This document shows positions 36,483 to 40,116 of a stretch of DNA of 64,000 bases, piece after piece. A program made the position numbers and the translations under genes. Numbering within the stretch: position 1 is the first letter of the stretch; the number at the start of each line of letters is the position of its first letter. This stretch comes from Alphaproteobacteria bacterium. Lineage in GTDB: Bacteria > Pseudomonadota > Alphaproteobacteria > Micavibrionales > Micavibrionaceae. The notes under the pieces are model-generated. The model was not told where the DNA came from and ran no database searches. It saw only the letters and a program-made list of their open reading frames with translations. The DNA lies in the NCBI GenBank assembly GCA_016794305.1, contig JAEUKN010000002.1:62001-126000 (forward strand), written 5' to 3'.

Positions 36483-38549
36483 ATGACCACATTATCATCA
36501 AGCTCTGAATTATCGGCCACTGAAACTCGTTCCGGGTTGCCGAATACGGCCCCGAATACGGGCCCCCTCTGGACAGCTTCGCATGAACGCCGCGCGCAAT
36601 CGCATTTGATGAAATTTGCCGTGTTAAACGGATTTAATGCGGATGTGGATTATGCCACGCTTCACCATTGGTCAGTGACCCAAATCGGGCCGTTTTGGTC
36701 GGCTTTTTGGGATTATGCGGGCATTATCGGCGATAAGGGCCAAGTGATTATTGAGCATGAAGGGGAGATGGAGCGGGCGCAATTTTTCCCCGATGCCCAC
36801 CTGAACTGGGCGGAAAACATGCTGAAGCGGCGTGATCGTTCCACGGCCATTATCTTTCGGGATGAGCAAGGGCGCGAGCGCAGCTATAGTTTTGAAACAT
36901 TGGCGCAGCTTGTCTCGCGGTTACAACAGGCATTACAGGCCGCGGGAATTGTGGCGGGGGACCGTATCGCGGGATATCTTCCAAATTTGCCTGAAACATT
37001 AATTTCTGCGATGGCCTGTGCTTCATTGGGGGCCGTATGGTGCTCGGCGTCTCCTGATTTTGGCGCGCAAGGGGTGGTCGATCGTTTCGGCCAAATTGAA
37101 CCCAAAATCATGATCACGGTTGACGGATATTTTTATGGCGGCAAAACCATTGATATTCGCCCCAAAATCAAAGAAATTTTACCGCAATTGCCGAGTGTTG
37201 AACGGGTGATCATGATTCCGTTTGTGGATGAGGCCCTGGATGAGGCCCTGGATAAAGCCTTGGATAAAGCCTTGGATAAATCCGGCGTGATTGACGATAT
37301 TTCCGGCGCGCAATCCATTCATGATTTTATGGCGCCCTATGCGGCTCAGGACCCCATATTCCGGCGTGTCCCGTTTAATCATCCGCTCTTTATCATGTTT
37401 TCATCCGGCACCACGGGCATACCGAAATGTATTGTACACGGGCATGGCGGCACGTTGTTGCAACATATGAAGGAACACCAGTTGCAATGTGATATTAAGC
37501 CGAATGACCGGGTTTTTTACTTCACCACCTGTGGGTGGATGATGTGGAATTGGCAGATTTCAGCGTTGGCCAGCGGGGCCTGTGTTCTGCTTTACGACGG
37601 TTCGCCATTTTATCCCGACCCCTATGCGTTGTGGGATTATACCGACCGGCATGAAGTGACATTATTCGGCACCGGGGCGAAATATATTGATGCGCTCAAG
37701 GCCGAAGGATGCTGCGTCAAAAATCATTTTAAACTTGAGCATCTGAAAACCATCACCTCCACCGGGTCACCGTTGGTGCATGAGAGTTTTGAGTATGTCT
37801 ATGACACGATTAAATCCGATGTGCATTTGGCCTCAATTTCCGGTGGCACCGACATTGTGTCATGCTTTGTGATCGGGAATGTGTTTGATCCCGTCTGGCG
37901 CGGCGAAATTCAGGGTGCAGGATTGGGCTATGCCATTGATGTGTATGATGACACAGGGGCCCCTGCGCCTGTGAGTCAGGCAGGTGAAATGGTCTGCACC
38001 CGCCCCTTTCCCTCCATGCCGATTTATTTTTGGAATGATGAGGGGCGCGCGCGGTATCATAAGGCCTATTTCGACCGGTTTGAAAATGTCTGGTGCCACG
38101 GGGATTGGATTGAACGCACGCATCACGGCGGATTTATCATTATGGGCCGATCAGATGCAACGCTTAATCCCGGCGGCGTACGGATCGGTACAGCCGAAAT
38201 TTATCGCCAGGTGGAAAACATCCCGGAGGTCGCAGAATCCCTCGCGGTTGGGCAATTATGGGAGAATGATGAGCGGGTTATTTTATTCGTACGCTTAAAA
38301 AACGGCATCACATTGGACGAAGATTTAAAAATGCGGATTAAACAGAAAATTCGCACCGGGGCCTCGCCGCGCCACGTCCCCGCCAAAATCATCGCGGTGG
38401 CCGATATTCCGCGCACAAAAAGCAATAAAATTGTGGAATTGGCCGTCAAGGAAATTATTCACAACCGCCCCGTGCGCAATATCCATTCCCTCGCGAACCC
38501 CGAATCGCTAGAGCTCTATAAGGATTTGGCGGAGCTGAAACTGGCGTGA
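36483..38549 (+). CDS. Acetoacetyl-CoA synthetase
   Basis: 688 residues, ATG 36483. Adenylate-forming ligase that activates acetoacetate, as in ketone-body use and polyhydroxybutyrate turnover. Motifs: FSSGTTGIPKCIVHGHGG (about 300-317, the P-loop-like AMP motif), YDGSPFYPDP, TGSPLVHESF, GGTDIVSCFV (about 446), and ATLNPGGVRIGTAEIYRQVE (about 560), C-terminal PRTKSNKIVELAVKE with the conserved catalytic Lys. A 12-bp unit is tandemly repeated at 37227-37280, adding four copies of a DEALD/DKALD pattern around residues 249-266, an expansion on the surface. The reaction fits the acetoacetyl-CoA reductase (phaB) at the right edge. Confidence 0.93.
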   Translation: MTTLSSSSELSATETRSGLPNTAPNTGPLWTASHERRAQSHLMKFAVLNGFNADVDYATLHHWSVTQIGPFWSAFWDYAGIIGDKGQVIIEHEGEMERAQFFPDAHLNWAENMLKRRDRSTAIIFRDEQGRERSYSFETLAQLVSRLQQALQAAGIVAGDRIAGYLPNLPETLISAMACASLGAVWCSASPDFGAQGVVDRFGQIEPKIMITVDGYFYGGKTIDIRPKIKEILPQLPSVERVIMIPFVDEALDEALDKALDKALDKSGVIDDISGAQSIHDFMAPYAAQDPIFRRVPFNHPLFIMFSSGTTGIPKCIVHGHGGTLLQHMKEHQLQCDIKPNDRVFYFTTCGWMMWNWQISALASGACVLLYDGSPFYPDPYALWDYTDRHEVTLFGTGAKYIDALKAEGCCVKNHFKLEHLKTITSTGSPLVHESFEYVYDTIKSDVHLASISGGTDIVSCFVIGNVFDPVWRGEIQGAGLGYAIDVYDDTGAPAPVSQAGEMVCTRPFPSMPIYFWNDEGRARYHKAYFDRFENVWCHGDWIERTHHGGFIIMGRSDATLNPGGVRIGTAEIYRQVENIPEVAESLAVGQLWENDERVILFVRLKNGITLDEDLKMRIKQKIRTGASPRHVPAKIIAVADIPRTKSNKIVELAVKEIIHNRPVRNIHSLANPESLELYKDLAELKLA

Positions 38550-38561
38550 GGGTCTGTTGAG

Positions 38562-38606
38562 AGCATTTTGTTGTGATTAACCGGCCTCCGCTTAATCGCC
38601 AAAAGC
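38562..38606 (-). repeat. Dispersed repeat family 2, copy 2 (inverted)
   Basis: GCATTTTGTTGTGATTAACCGG then CTCCGCTTAATCGCC on the plus strand; its complement matches the core of the copies at 166-256 and 53126-53219. Between the acetoacetyl-CoA synthetase gene and the small peptide gene. Confidence 0.7.
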
Positions 38607-38611
38607 TTTAG

Positions 38612-38642
38612 CAAAAGAAAAAGGGGAAGAATGATCCTCCCC
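38612..38642 (-). terminator. Intrinsic terminator of the small peptide gene
   Basis: On the minus strand, GGGGA-N10-TCCCC pairs as a stem followed by TTTTTCTTTT. It lies 41 bp after the stop codon of the peptide gene at 38683. The stem is short but the T tract is strong. Confidence 0.6.
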
Positions 38643-38682
38643 TTACTCCCTGTTGAACGTTCCGGTTCGAAATTACCAAGTG

Positions 38683-38763
38683 TCATAAAACATAGAGCAG
38701 AACACCCGCCCATACGATTGCAAGACTTGCTAATGTGATCCCTGCTTTTACAACTTGTGGCAT
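38683..38763 (-). CDS. 26-residue membrane peptide (short gene)
   Basis: 27 codons including the stop, from ATG 38763 to TGA 38683-38685. The start is preceded by AGGAGGTGG, a near-perfect Shine-Dalgarno sequence, 3 nt before the ATG. The peptide (M-P-Q-V-V-K-A-G, then about 18 hydrophobic residues, ending VLLYVL) is a single predicted membrane helix with one Lys near the N-terminus. A candidate promoter TTGTCG (38815-38820) and TATGTT (38793-38798, 16 nt apart, read on the minus strand) and the downstream terminator complete a compact transcription unit. No known family; by size it resembles known tiny membrane peptides that regulate larger proteins. Not detectable with a usual ORF length limit. 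Confidence 0.6.
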   Translation of the reverse strand: MPQVVKAGITLASLAIVWAGVLLYVL

Positions 38764-38779
38764 GTCCACCTCCTGTCAG

Positions 38780-38789
38780 AAGACGTCTT
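38780..38789. promoter_or_regulatory. Palindrome AAGACGTCTT in the leader
   Basis: Perfect 10-bp palindrome 16 bp upstream of the peptide ATG, between the candidate -10 and the ribosome site. It could be an operator or a small hairpin. Confidence 0.4.
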
Positions 38790-38811
38790 TACAACATAGT
38801 CTATATTCATT

Positions 38812-38830
38812 ATGCGACAAGCCGTCGCAT
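38812..38830. promoter_or_regulatory. Inverted repeat ATGCGAC-N5-GTCGCAT at the candidate -35
   Basis: Perfect 7-bp arms overlap the candidate -35 element of the peptide gene at 38815-38820. This placement is typical of a repressor site. The binding protein is not known. Confidence 0.4.
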
Positions 38831-38907
38831 GTGTCAAATAGTCCGTGTGCTGCAAAGCCGCAGAAATTAAGGGTTTATTCATAATTTGGTTGATAGGTGA
38901 AGTGACG

Positions 38908-38930
38908 GCCTTTTAATCGCAAAATGCTTT
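38908..38930 (-). repeat. Partial copy of repeat family 2
   Basis: On the minus strand AAAGCATTTTGCGATTAAAA followed by GGCCG matches the first part of the family 2 unit. It flanks the peptide gene on the other side from 38562-38606, before hemH. Confidence 0.4.
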
Positions 38931-40044
38931 AATTGTTGCCGAATTGGCGTTGGCAGCAATCCTTGTGCGCGCACGGGCAGACAGGCGGGTTGGAAATGAT
39001 GAGGGACGGCGGTGCGCTGGTTAACTCCGCAACCCTCTTGACGGCCCCCTCCCTATCCCTCTCAATATCCCCATTCAGCGTTTCCAAAGCCAACTCCTTT
39101 AATCCGTTGATAAACTCCGGGTGGGTGCCCACCGTGGGAACACGTTCAAAATCGGGAACGCCGATGGAATGCGCCAAATGGCGATATTCTTCCTCAATTT
39201 CCACCAAAGTTTCCACGTGCTCGCTGACAAAGGCATGGGGGTAGATGAGGATCGGCACCTGATCGAGCGCAGCCTTTTGAATCGCTTCATCTGTACTGGG
39301 GCCGATCCAGGTCAGCCGCCCCACGCGACTTTGGTAACACACCATCCAATCAAGATCGGAGATGCCCAACGCCGCCACAATTTTTTTGGCCGTTTCTTCG
39401 CATTGCCATTGATACGGGTCGCCCTGTTTGATGATGATTTCGGGGAGGCCGTGGGCGGAGAATAATACACGCGGCGCGCGGCCCAATTCCCGCGTCATGT
39501 CATCATATTTTTGTCGGATGAGCGCGGCGGAGGCCCCGATAAACCCGTCCTCAAACGGGTAACAACACACCATGCGCGTGGGGAATTTCACCCCTGCATC
39601 GCTGCAGGCCTGCGTCCATGCCTGAAGCGACGACCGCGTCGTGGTTGTGGAATATTGCGGATAAAGCGGCAGCAAAATCACGCGGTCGGGGGCGAAATCC
39701 GCGACCTCACTAACCACCTGCGGGGCCATCGGGTGCCAATAACGCATGCAGGTAAAAACTTTGAAAGTTTGCGTTTCATCAGTGCTATTAAGCACGGATT
39801 CGAGTGCATTTGCCTGTGCCGTCGTGTTTTCCAACAGGGGGCTTTTGCCGCCCAAACGACCGTAAGCGTTGCCGGCCTCAACTTTCGTGCGTCGGCGCGC
39901 AATCAAGCGAGAGACCAAATACCGCACCGGCCACGGCGCGCGGATAATGTTTTTATCCATAAAGAAATTGATCAAGAACGGATAAATCGACTCTTTGCGG
40001 TCCGGCCCGCCAAGGTTAAATAGGATCACTGCGGTTTTGGGCAT
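38929..40044 (-). CDS. hemH: Ferrochelatase
   Basis: 371 residues from ATG 40044 (AGGA about 9 nt upstream); the frame is open to 40083. Inserts ferrous iron into protoporphyrin IX, the last step of haem synthesis. Motifs: FNLGGPD (about 8-14), LPLYPQYSTTTTRSS (about 131-145), the catalytic His in FSAHGLPE (about 195), and the Glu side in HVETLVEIEEEYRHLA. The C-terminus holds four Cys in VCPCAHKDCC (CxC-x4-CC), as in ferrochelatases with a [2Fe-2S] cluster, for example the Caulobacter enzyme. No haem pathway partner is adjacent; fliX lies upstream. Confidence 0.95.
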   Translation of the reverse strand: MPKTAVILFNLGGPDRKESIYPFLINFFMDKNIIRAPWPVRYLVSRLIARRRTKVEAGNAYGRLGGKSPLLENTTAQANALESVLNSTDETQTFKVFTCMRYWHPMAPQVVSEVADFAPDRVILLPLYPQYSTTTTRSSLQAWTQACSDAGVKFPTRMVCCYPFEDGFIGASAALIRQKYDDMTRELGRAPRVLFSAHGLPEIIIKQGDPYQWQCEETAKKIVAALGISDLDWMVCYQSRVGRLTWIGPSTDEAIQKAALDQVPILIYPHAFVSEHVETLVEIEEEYRHLAHSIGVPDFERVPTVGTHPEFINGLKELALETLNGDIERDREGAVKRVAELTSAPPSLIISNPPVCPCAHKDCCQRQFGNN

Positions 40045-40116
40045 GGCGGGTTTTCCTGACGGGTTTTCCTGAAATAAGAACATGATCGGGGGATGATGAT
40101 AGGGATATAGGGGGCT

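Follow-up and report, generated by a model that had tools for sequence, protein, structure and literature searches.

The window analysed here is a stretch of 64,000 nucleotides from an alphaproteobacterium of the Micavibrionaceae (GenBank assembly GCA_016794305.1, contig JAEUKN010000002.1, positions 62,001 to 126,000). Between the acetoacetyl-CoA synthetase gene and hemH, the gene for ferrochelatase, lies a gap (38550-38928) in which no credible gene was found besides a very short open reading frame (ORF) on the strand of hemH (Table 1). The initial annotation had proposed a self-contained gene at this place with its parts in the right order, and the 26-codon ORF, the Shine-Dalgarno (SD) sequence and the terminator, a stem with a T-rich tail, were all found in the otherwise gene-free gap. 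In the window a terminator is seen after the ORF and none between hemH and the ORF; terminators resembling that of the window also lie 3' of the ORF in three related genomes (G001, G008 and G010). An Rfam match to ctRNA_p42d (23.2 bits against a cut-off of 50 bits) is sub-threshold and was dismissed as merely the terminator hairpin. The neighbouring acetoacetyl-CoA synthetase gene contains a short in-frame repeat at about 37260-37320 (DEALDEALDKALDKALDK).

Table 1. Features of the peptide locus in window coordinates
Feature	Position	Strand	Remarks
Acetoacetyl-CoA synthetase gene	36483-38549	+	convergent with the peptide gene
Intrinsic terminator, AAGGGGAGGATCATTCTTCCCCTT + TTTCTTTT	38611..38644, stem 38644-38621	-	T-rich tail; closes the unit 3' of the ORF
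Peptide ORF, 26 codons + stop, MPQVVKAGITLASLAIVWAGVLLYVL	38763 (ATG)..38683 (stop)	-	kept in 11/11 congeneric genomes; purifying selection indicated by codon comparison
Shine-Dalgarno sequence, AGGAGG	38774-38769	-	5 nt before the ATG; purine-rich SD kept in relatives
Sigma-70-type promoter, TTGACA-17-CATAAT	38837-38809	-	11/12 consensus matches; kept in 11/11 congeners
Dyad ATGCGAC-GGCTT-GTCGCAT, putative operator	38812..38830	-	in the promoter spacer, overlaps the -10
Upstream box, GCTTTGCAGCACA; putative activator site or upstream element	38846..38858, GCTTTGCAGCA at 38858-38848	-	8 nt before the -35
hemH (ferrochelatase)	38929..40083, likely start 40044 (MPKTAV...)	-	immediately upstream of the peptide ORF

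The ORF was compared among the 11 sampled genomes of its genus, that of the window being G000. Named records with a match include Micavibrio sp. UBA5572 and UBA6212 and one labelled Rhodospirillaceae, and the genus is therefore regarded as a Micavibrio-like group of Alphaproteobacteria. In tblastn searches with the 26 residues, the ORF was found full-length or nearly so in all ten other congeners (E values of 5e-9 to 0.002, 46-77% identity), and the gene is single-copy. When 104 genomes of the family were searched with a profile, the 11 congeners were recovered at E <= 2e-13 and no homologue was found in the 93 genomes outside the genus, where the best match (E = 0.004) lies inside a longer frame. 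A class-wide draw of 385 genomes gave nothing at E <= 0.001 except the window's own genome, and no homologue was found in the viral contigs and plasmids searched. At the sensitivity of these sequence searches the gene is absent outside the genus. Within it the peptide has 26-27 residues and always begins MP[QKR], nearly all copies carry a clear purine-rich SD, and residues M1, P2, T10, L14, W18 and V21 are invariant. Compared with the window, nucleotides at codon positions 1/2/3 differ at 6/0/18 sites in the nearest relative (G007), 7/2/15 in G004 and 9/1/17 in G010, and G002 and G005 differ from each other at 0/0/5; pN is smaller than pS in all pairs listed. Because the changes crowd into third codon positions, we infer that the ORF is translated and selected; to judge from these codon comparisons, the amino acids of the peptide are under purifying selection.

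The ORF is also preceded by a promoter of its own. A consensus scan of positions 38500-39000 on both strands found no promoter-like site except TTGACA-17-CATAAT, which is present in 11/11 genomes in the form TTGAC(A/T)-17/18-CATAAT, with CATACT and GATAAT as variants and with a weak -35 (TTGCTT) in G010; the predicted leader is mostly 39-41 nt long in the genus. The promoter named in the initial annotation, TTGTCG-16-TATGTT, is not the conserved one, which lies just upstream. The claim of a real gene for a tiny single-helix peptide, by contrast, is borne out by the frame, start, SD and own promoter in all 11 congeners and by the synonymous drift at third positions, and the proposed check of related genomes for indels or stops, now carried out, did not refute it. 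Taken together, these comparisons strongly support a real gene, tiny and not described before, that encodes a membrane-spanning peptide of 26 residues. No mention of it was found among the titles and abstracts listed by a literature search for small proteins in Micavibrio.

The peptide consists of a hydrophobic helix (residues 7-26, with a 17-residue hydropathy maximum of about 1.9-2.4) preceded by a single basic residue at position 6 (K6 or R); no charge follows this residue and there is no soluble domain. By the positive-inside rule, the basic residue before the helix predicts an N-in/C-out orientation. Variation along the helix is one-sided. The residue entropy of positions 6-25 is periodic as in a helix, with a peak at 98 degrees (permutation p = 0.0016 at 100 degrees; p = 0.006 with the angle left free between 90 and 110), so that T10, V21, L14, V17, K6, Y24, A7 and W18 form a conserved face and positions 8, 11, 12, 15, 16, 19, 22 and 23 a variable one. 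A single conserved face suggests a helix that docks on a membrane partner, and one-sided conservation would also fit a homodimer. It thus favours a protein partner of some kind; regulation of a transporter or kinase, the analogy drawn in the initial annotation, would be one candidate role.

No significant match to the peptide was found in Pfam, NCBIfam, PHROGs or the PDB. CcmD (PF04995, TIGR04391) was rejected at 11.8 bits against a cut-off of 24, with no above-cut-off match in the genus and none at the locus, and so was MmpA (NF046122), to which the window's peptide scores 12.8 bits against a cut-off of 32. These resemblances, like those to CcoM and Coa3, fall far below the cut-offs and would be expected of any short hydrophobic helix. 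Since the ORF encodes little more than one transmembrane (TM) helix, the peptide is filed in the broad class of small single-TM proteins, which is a functional class and not a homology family, and is assigned to no sequence family. The main rival to a docking peptide tied to hemH, namely a micro-subunit of a respiratory complex (such as CydX, CydH and CcoM in the cytochrome oxidases) that is encoded apart from its complex, with a position behind hemH that is incidental or reflects haem demand, draws on the same properties: the size, the single helix, the one conserved face and the well-formed expression signals would suit a stoichiometric small subunit, and the weak likeness to the CcoM, CcmD-like and Coa3 models points the same way. 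We consider it unlikely, however, for none of these models is reached at its cut-off, the restriction to one genus would be odd for such a subunit, and the known ones are usually encoded in the operon of their complex.

The ORF lies directly behind hemH in 10/10 genomes that could be tested, in three different neighbourhoods; G009, whose contig starts a short distance before the ORF, was left out of this count. In nine genomes the order is hemE-hemH-peptide, followed in six by a CDF-family transporter gene and in three by a convergent parB, and in the window the hemH-peptide pair is kept although neither hemE nor the CDF transporter gene or parB flanks it. In most other genera of the order examined (related loci L098-L117) hemJ lies directly 3' of hemH. 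An intact hemJ is found elsewhere in 9/11 genomes of the genus, about 4-5 kb away where it shares the contig of hemH; in the window's genome it is on another contig. The peptide gene is therefore taken to be new to this genus and to stand in a haem locus that has been rearranged. The idea of the peptide as a remnant of HemJ was dropped in view of these intact copies and of the lack of convincing similarity by eye. In the window's genome the haem cluster appears to be broken up; hemE was not found in this assembly, which is 96% complete and may hold the gene in a gap, the search having had no positive control. In a hemH tree of 15 rows the window's genome sits on a long branch and is not firmly placed. 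The window's ferrochelatase has a cysteine cluster at its C-terminus (CPCAHKDCC at about 38932-38980 on the minus strand, CPMQFSQCC in relatives), which is reminiscent of the C-terminal [2Fe-2S] motif that is reportedly present in the Caulobacter enzyme.

The conserved gene order suggests a functional tie between the peptide and ferrochelatase. Linkage over about 150-170 nt can nevertheless persist passively, since a breakpoint seldom hits a gap of this size, and the well-formed promoter of the peptide gene argues against strict co-expression with hemH. Across the family hemH is found in genomes that lack the peptide, and ferrochelatase as such can therefore do without it. Gene order also bears on another reading, in which translation of the ORF would regulate a gene 3' of it, as in a leader peptide or attenuator. 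A short ORF with its own promoter would fit this role, and a CDF transporter gene indeed starts about 43 nt behind the stop codon in G002 and G005. The downstream gene varies from genome to genome, however, and is convergent in the window, G001, G003 and G008; a terminator closes the unit in several genomes; and what is selected is the amino-acid sequence of a membrane helix, not a run of one codon. A leader peptide is thus scarcely credible.

Two further elements accompany the promoter. The dyad ATGCGAC-N5-GTCGCAT is present as described in the initial annotation, but it sits between the -35 and the -10 and not over the -35. Of its seven arm pairs, 5-7 can form in G000 and six congeners and 0-1 in the four other genomes. 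In the former seven genomes it is the best of 168 choices of arm, gap and position, with the inner six pairs 90% complementary against a median of 24%, and one pair is compensated from A-T to G-C on both sides (GAC/GTC to GGC/GCC). Since these seven genomes are relatives and one of them served to choose the dyad, the figures count as support for it and not as proof. The leader palindrome AAGACGTCTT, present as written at 38789-38780 in the window, is absent in the other ten genomes of the genus and is most likely due to chance; by our own estimate, about 0.04 such palindromes are expected by chance in a leader of such length. Of the two palindromes that had been thought to bind a regulator, then, the promoter dyad retains support by its conservation in 7/11 genomes and its one compensated pair, and the leader palindrome, which is not kept, does not. 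The second element, a box upstream of the promoter (GCTTTGCAGCA), had been missed. Its distance to the -35 is exactly 8 nt in 10/11 genomes, one of which has it as GCTTTGCAACA; it is absent in G006, where hemH ends close to the -35.

Neither element points to a wider set of target genes. The only exact copy of the box in the window's genome is the one at the peptide promoter, nearly every exact copy elsewhere in the genus falls within a gene, and no second copy of the strict dyad occurs in any of the 11 genomes; therefore no regulon or regulator is inferred. PhaR, considered as a possible binder of the CTGC-N-GCAG arms, was dropped, as the box was not found at other promoters. Separately, a near-repeat around GCTTTGCTGCACA, continuing as GATCCCCGC..TATGAACAAGCCTT..GCTTGTC.CGGGGATGAC, occurs in at least three places of the window's own genome (L017, L024 and L036) and is probably a dispersed palindromic repeat. 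Alternatively, the control region may hold no operators: the dyad may act in RNA, as a hairpin in transcripts that read through from hemH, and the box may serve RNA polymerase as an upstream element. We regard this as plausible, if short of probable. It accords with the lack of further intergenic copies of the strict dyad and exact box that would point to a regulon, and the dyad would form an RNA hairpin of 7 bp with a 5-nt loop; on the other hand, the dyad sits within a conserved promoter, precisely between its -35 and its -10, the distance from box to -35 is fixed at 8 nt in 10/11 genomes, and no T tract follows the dyad. This alternative concerns the control region only and is compatible with any reading of the peptide.

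An operator dyad within the promoter would also resemble a tightly repressed gene, as expected of a type I toxin-antitoxin toxin or stress peptide like TisB, DinQ or ShoB; DinQ, a toxic single-TM peptide, provides the precedent (PMC3567139). The peptide does resemble TisB, DinQ and IbsC in length, in hydrophobicity and in having its own promoter. In contrast to these, it is encoded by a single copy in every congener, neither sporadic nor mobile, and its residues are conserved in detail on one face of the helix. With about 39-41 nt in most genomes, the leader is short for such a system, the plus strand showed no promoter-like site for an antisense RNA between 38500 and 39000 in a simple consensus scan, and the gene is still there in the 4/11 genomes that lack the dyad. 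We therefore consider a toxin very improbable.

We propose, with moderate confidence, that the gene encodes an expressed single-pass inner-membrane peptide of 26 residues that docks by one face on a larger membrane protein, which it would serve as accessory subunit or modulator. Its synthesis would be driven by a strong promoter that the gene has for itself behind hemH and that is probably tuned by the box and, in some members of the genus, by the spacer dyad. The peptide would lie in the inner membrane with its N-terminus in the cytoplasm and its C-terminus on the periplasmic side, and the face formed by K6, A7, T10, L14, V17, W18, G20, V21 and Y24 may pack against the partner. By linkage and by analogy with PufQ and with the CAB domain of certain ferrochelatases, the favoured candidate for this partner is ferrochelatase or one of its haem-pathway neighbours, which we put forward tentatively; in a role like that of PufQ in Rhodobacter, the peptide might hold the enzyme at the membrane or adjust the flux of porphyrins at that site. 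More doubtful is the specific proposal of a genus-specific microprotein of recent origin behind hemH that is dedicated, with a promoter switch of its own, to regulating a [2Fe-2S]-type ferrochelatase or anchoring it in the membrane. If ferrochelatase is bound, small-protein control of haem synthesis would reach beyond photosynthetic bacteria; if it is not, the gene would still represent a new family of microproteins whose interaction face is defined and whose promoter is probably regulated. In either case such a gene is easily overlooked, having 26 codons and lying outside all family libraries used, and yet it is found genus-wide with its promoter, SD and frame.

Among known systems, YohP of E. 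coli, with 27 amino acids and essentially one TM helix that is located in the membrane or acts on it (PMC7549839), and likewise AcrZ, MgtS and CydX, are similar to the peptide in size and one-TM architecture, though not in sequence at the level of a significant Pfam, NCBIfam, PHROGs or PDB match. In most related genera HemJ (PF03653) is encoded where the peptide gene lies here, behind hemH and on its strand; it has about 150 residues against the 26 of the peptide, and as hemJ is still present elsewhere in 9/11 genomes of the genus, the peptide does not replace it. The CAB-type domain of cyanobacterial and plant ferrochelatases is a membrane helix fused to the enzyme, with the chlorophyll-binding motif EXXNXR (PMC8529089). 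Both it and the peptide are membrane helices linked to ferrochelatase, whereas the peptide is encoded by a separate gene and lacks the EXXNXR motif. PufQ of Rhodobacter is a single-TM protein, and FLAG pull-downs retrieve a complex of it with ferrochelatase (PMC5725709). It differs from the peptide in its mass of 8.7 kDa (about three times the length), in its soluble flanks on both sides and in its place in the photosynthesis puf operon, the 26-residue peptide being encoded outside any photosynthesis operon; likeness in sequence was judged via Pfam only, which gave no significant family match. What PufQ and the peptide have in common is that each is a small single-TM protein of an alphaproteobacterium with a tie to ferrochelatase, a tie that in the case of the peptide is genetic and makes binding a candidate function.
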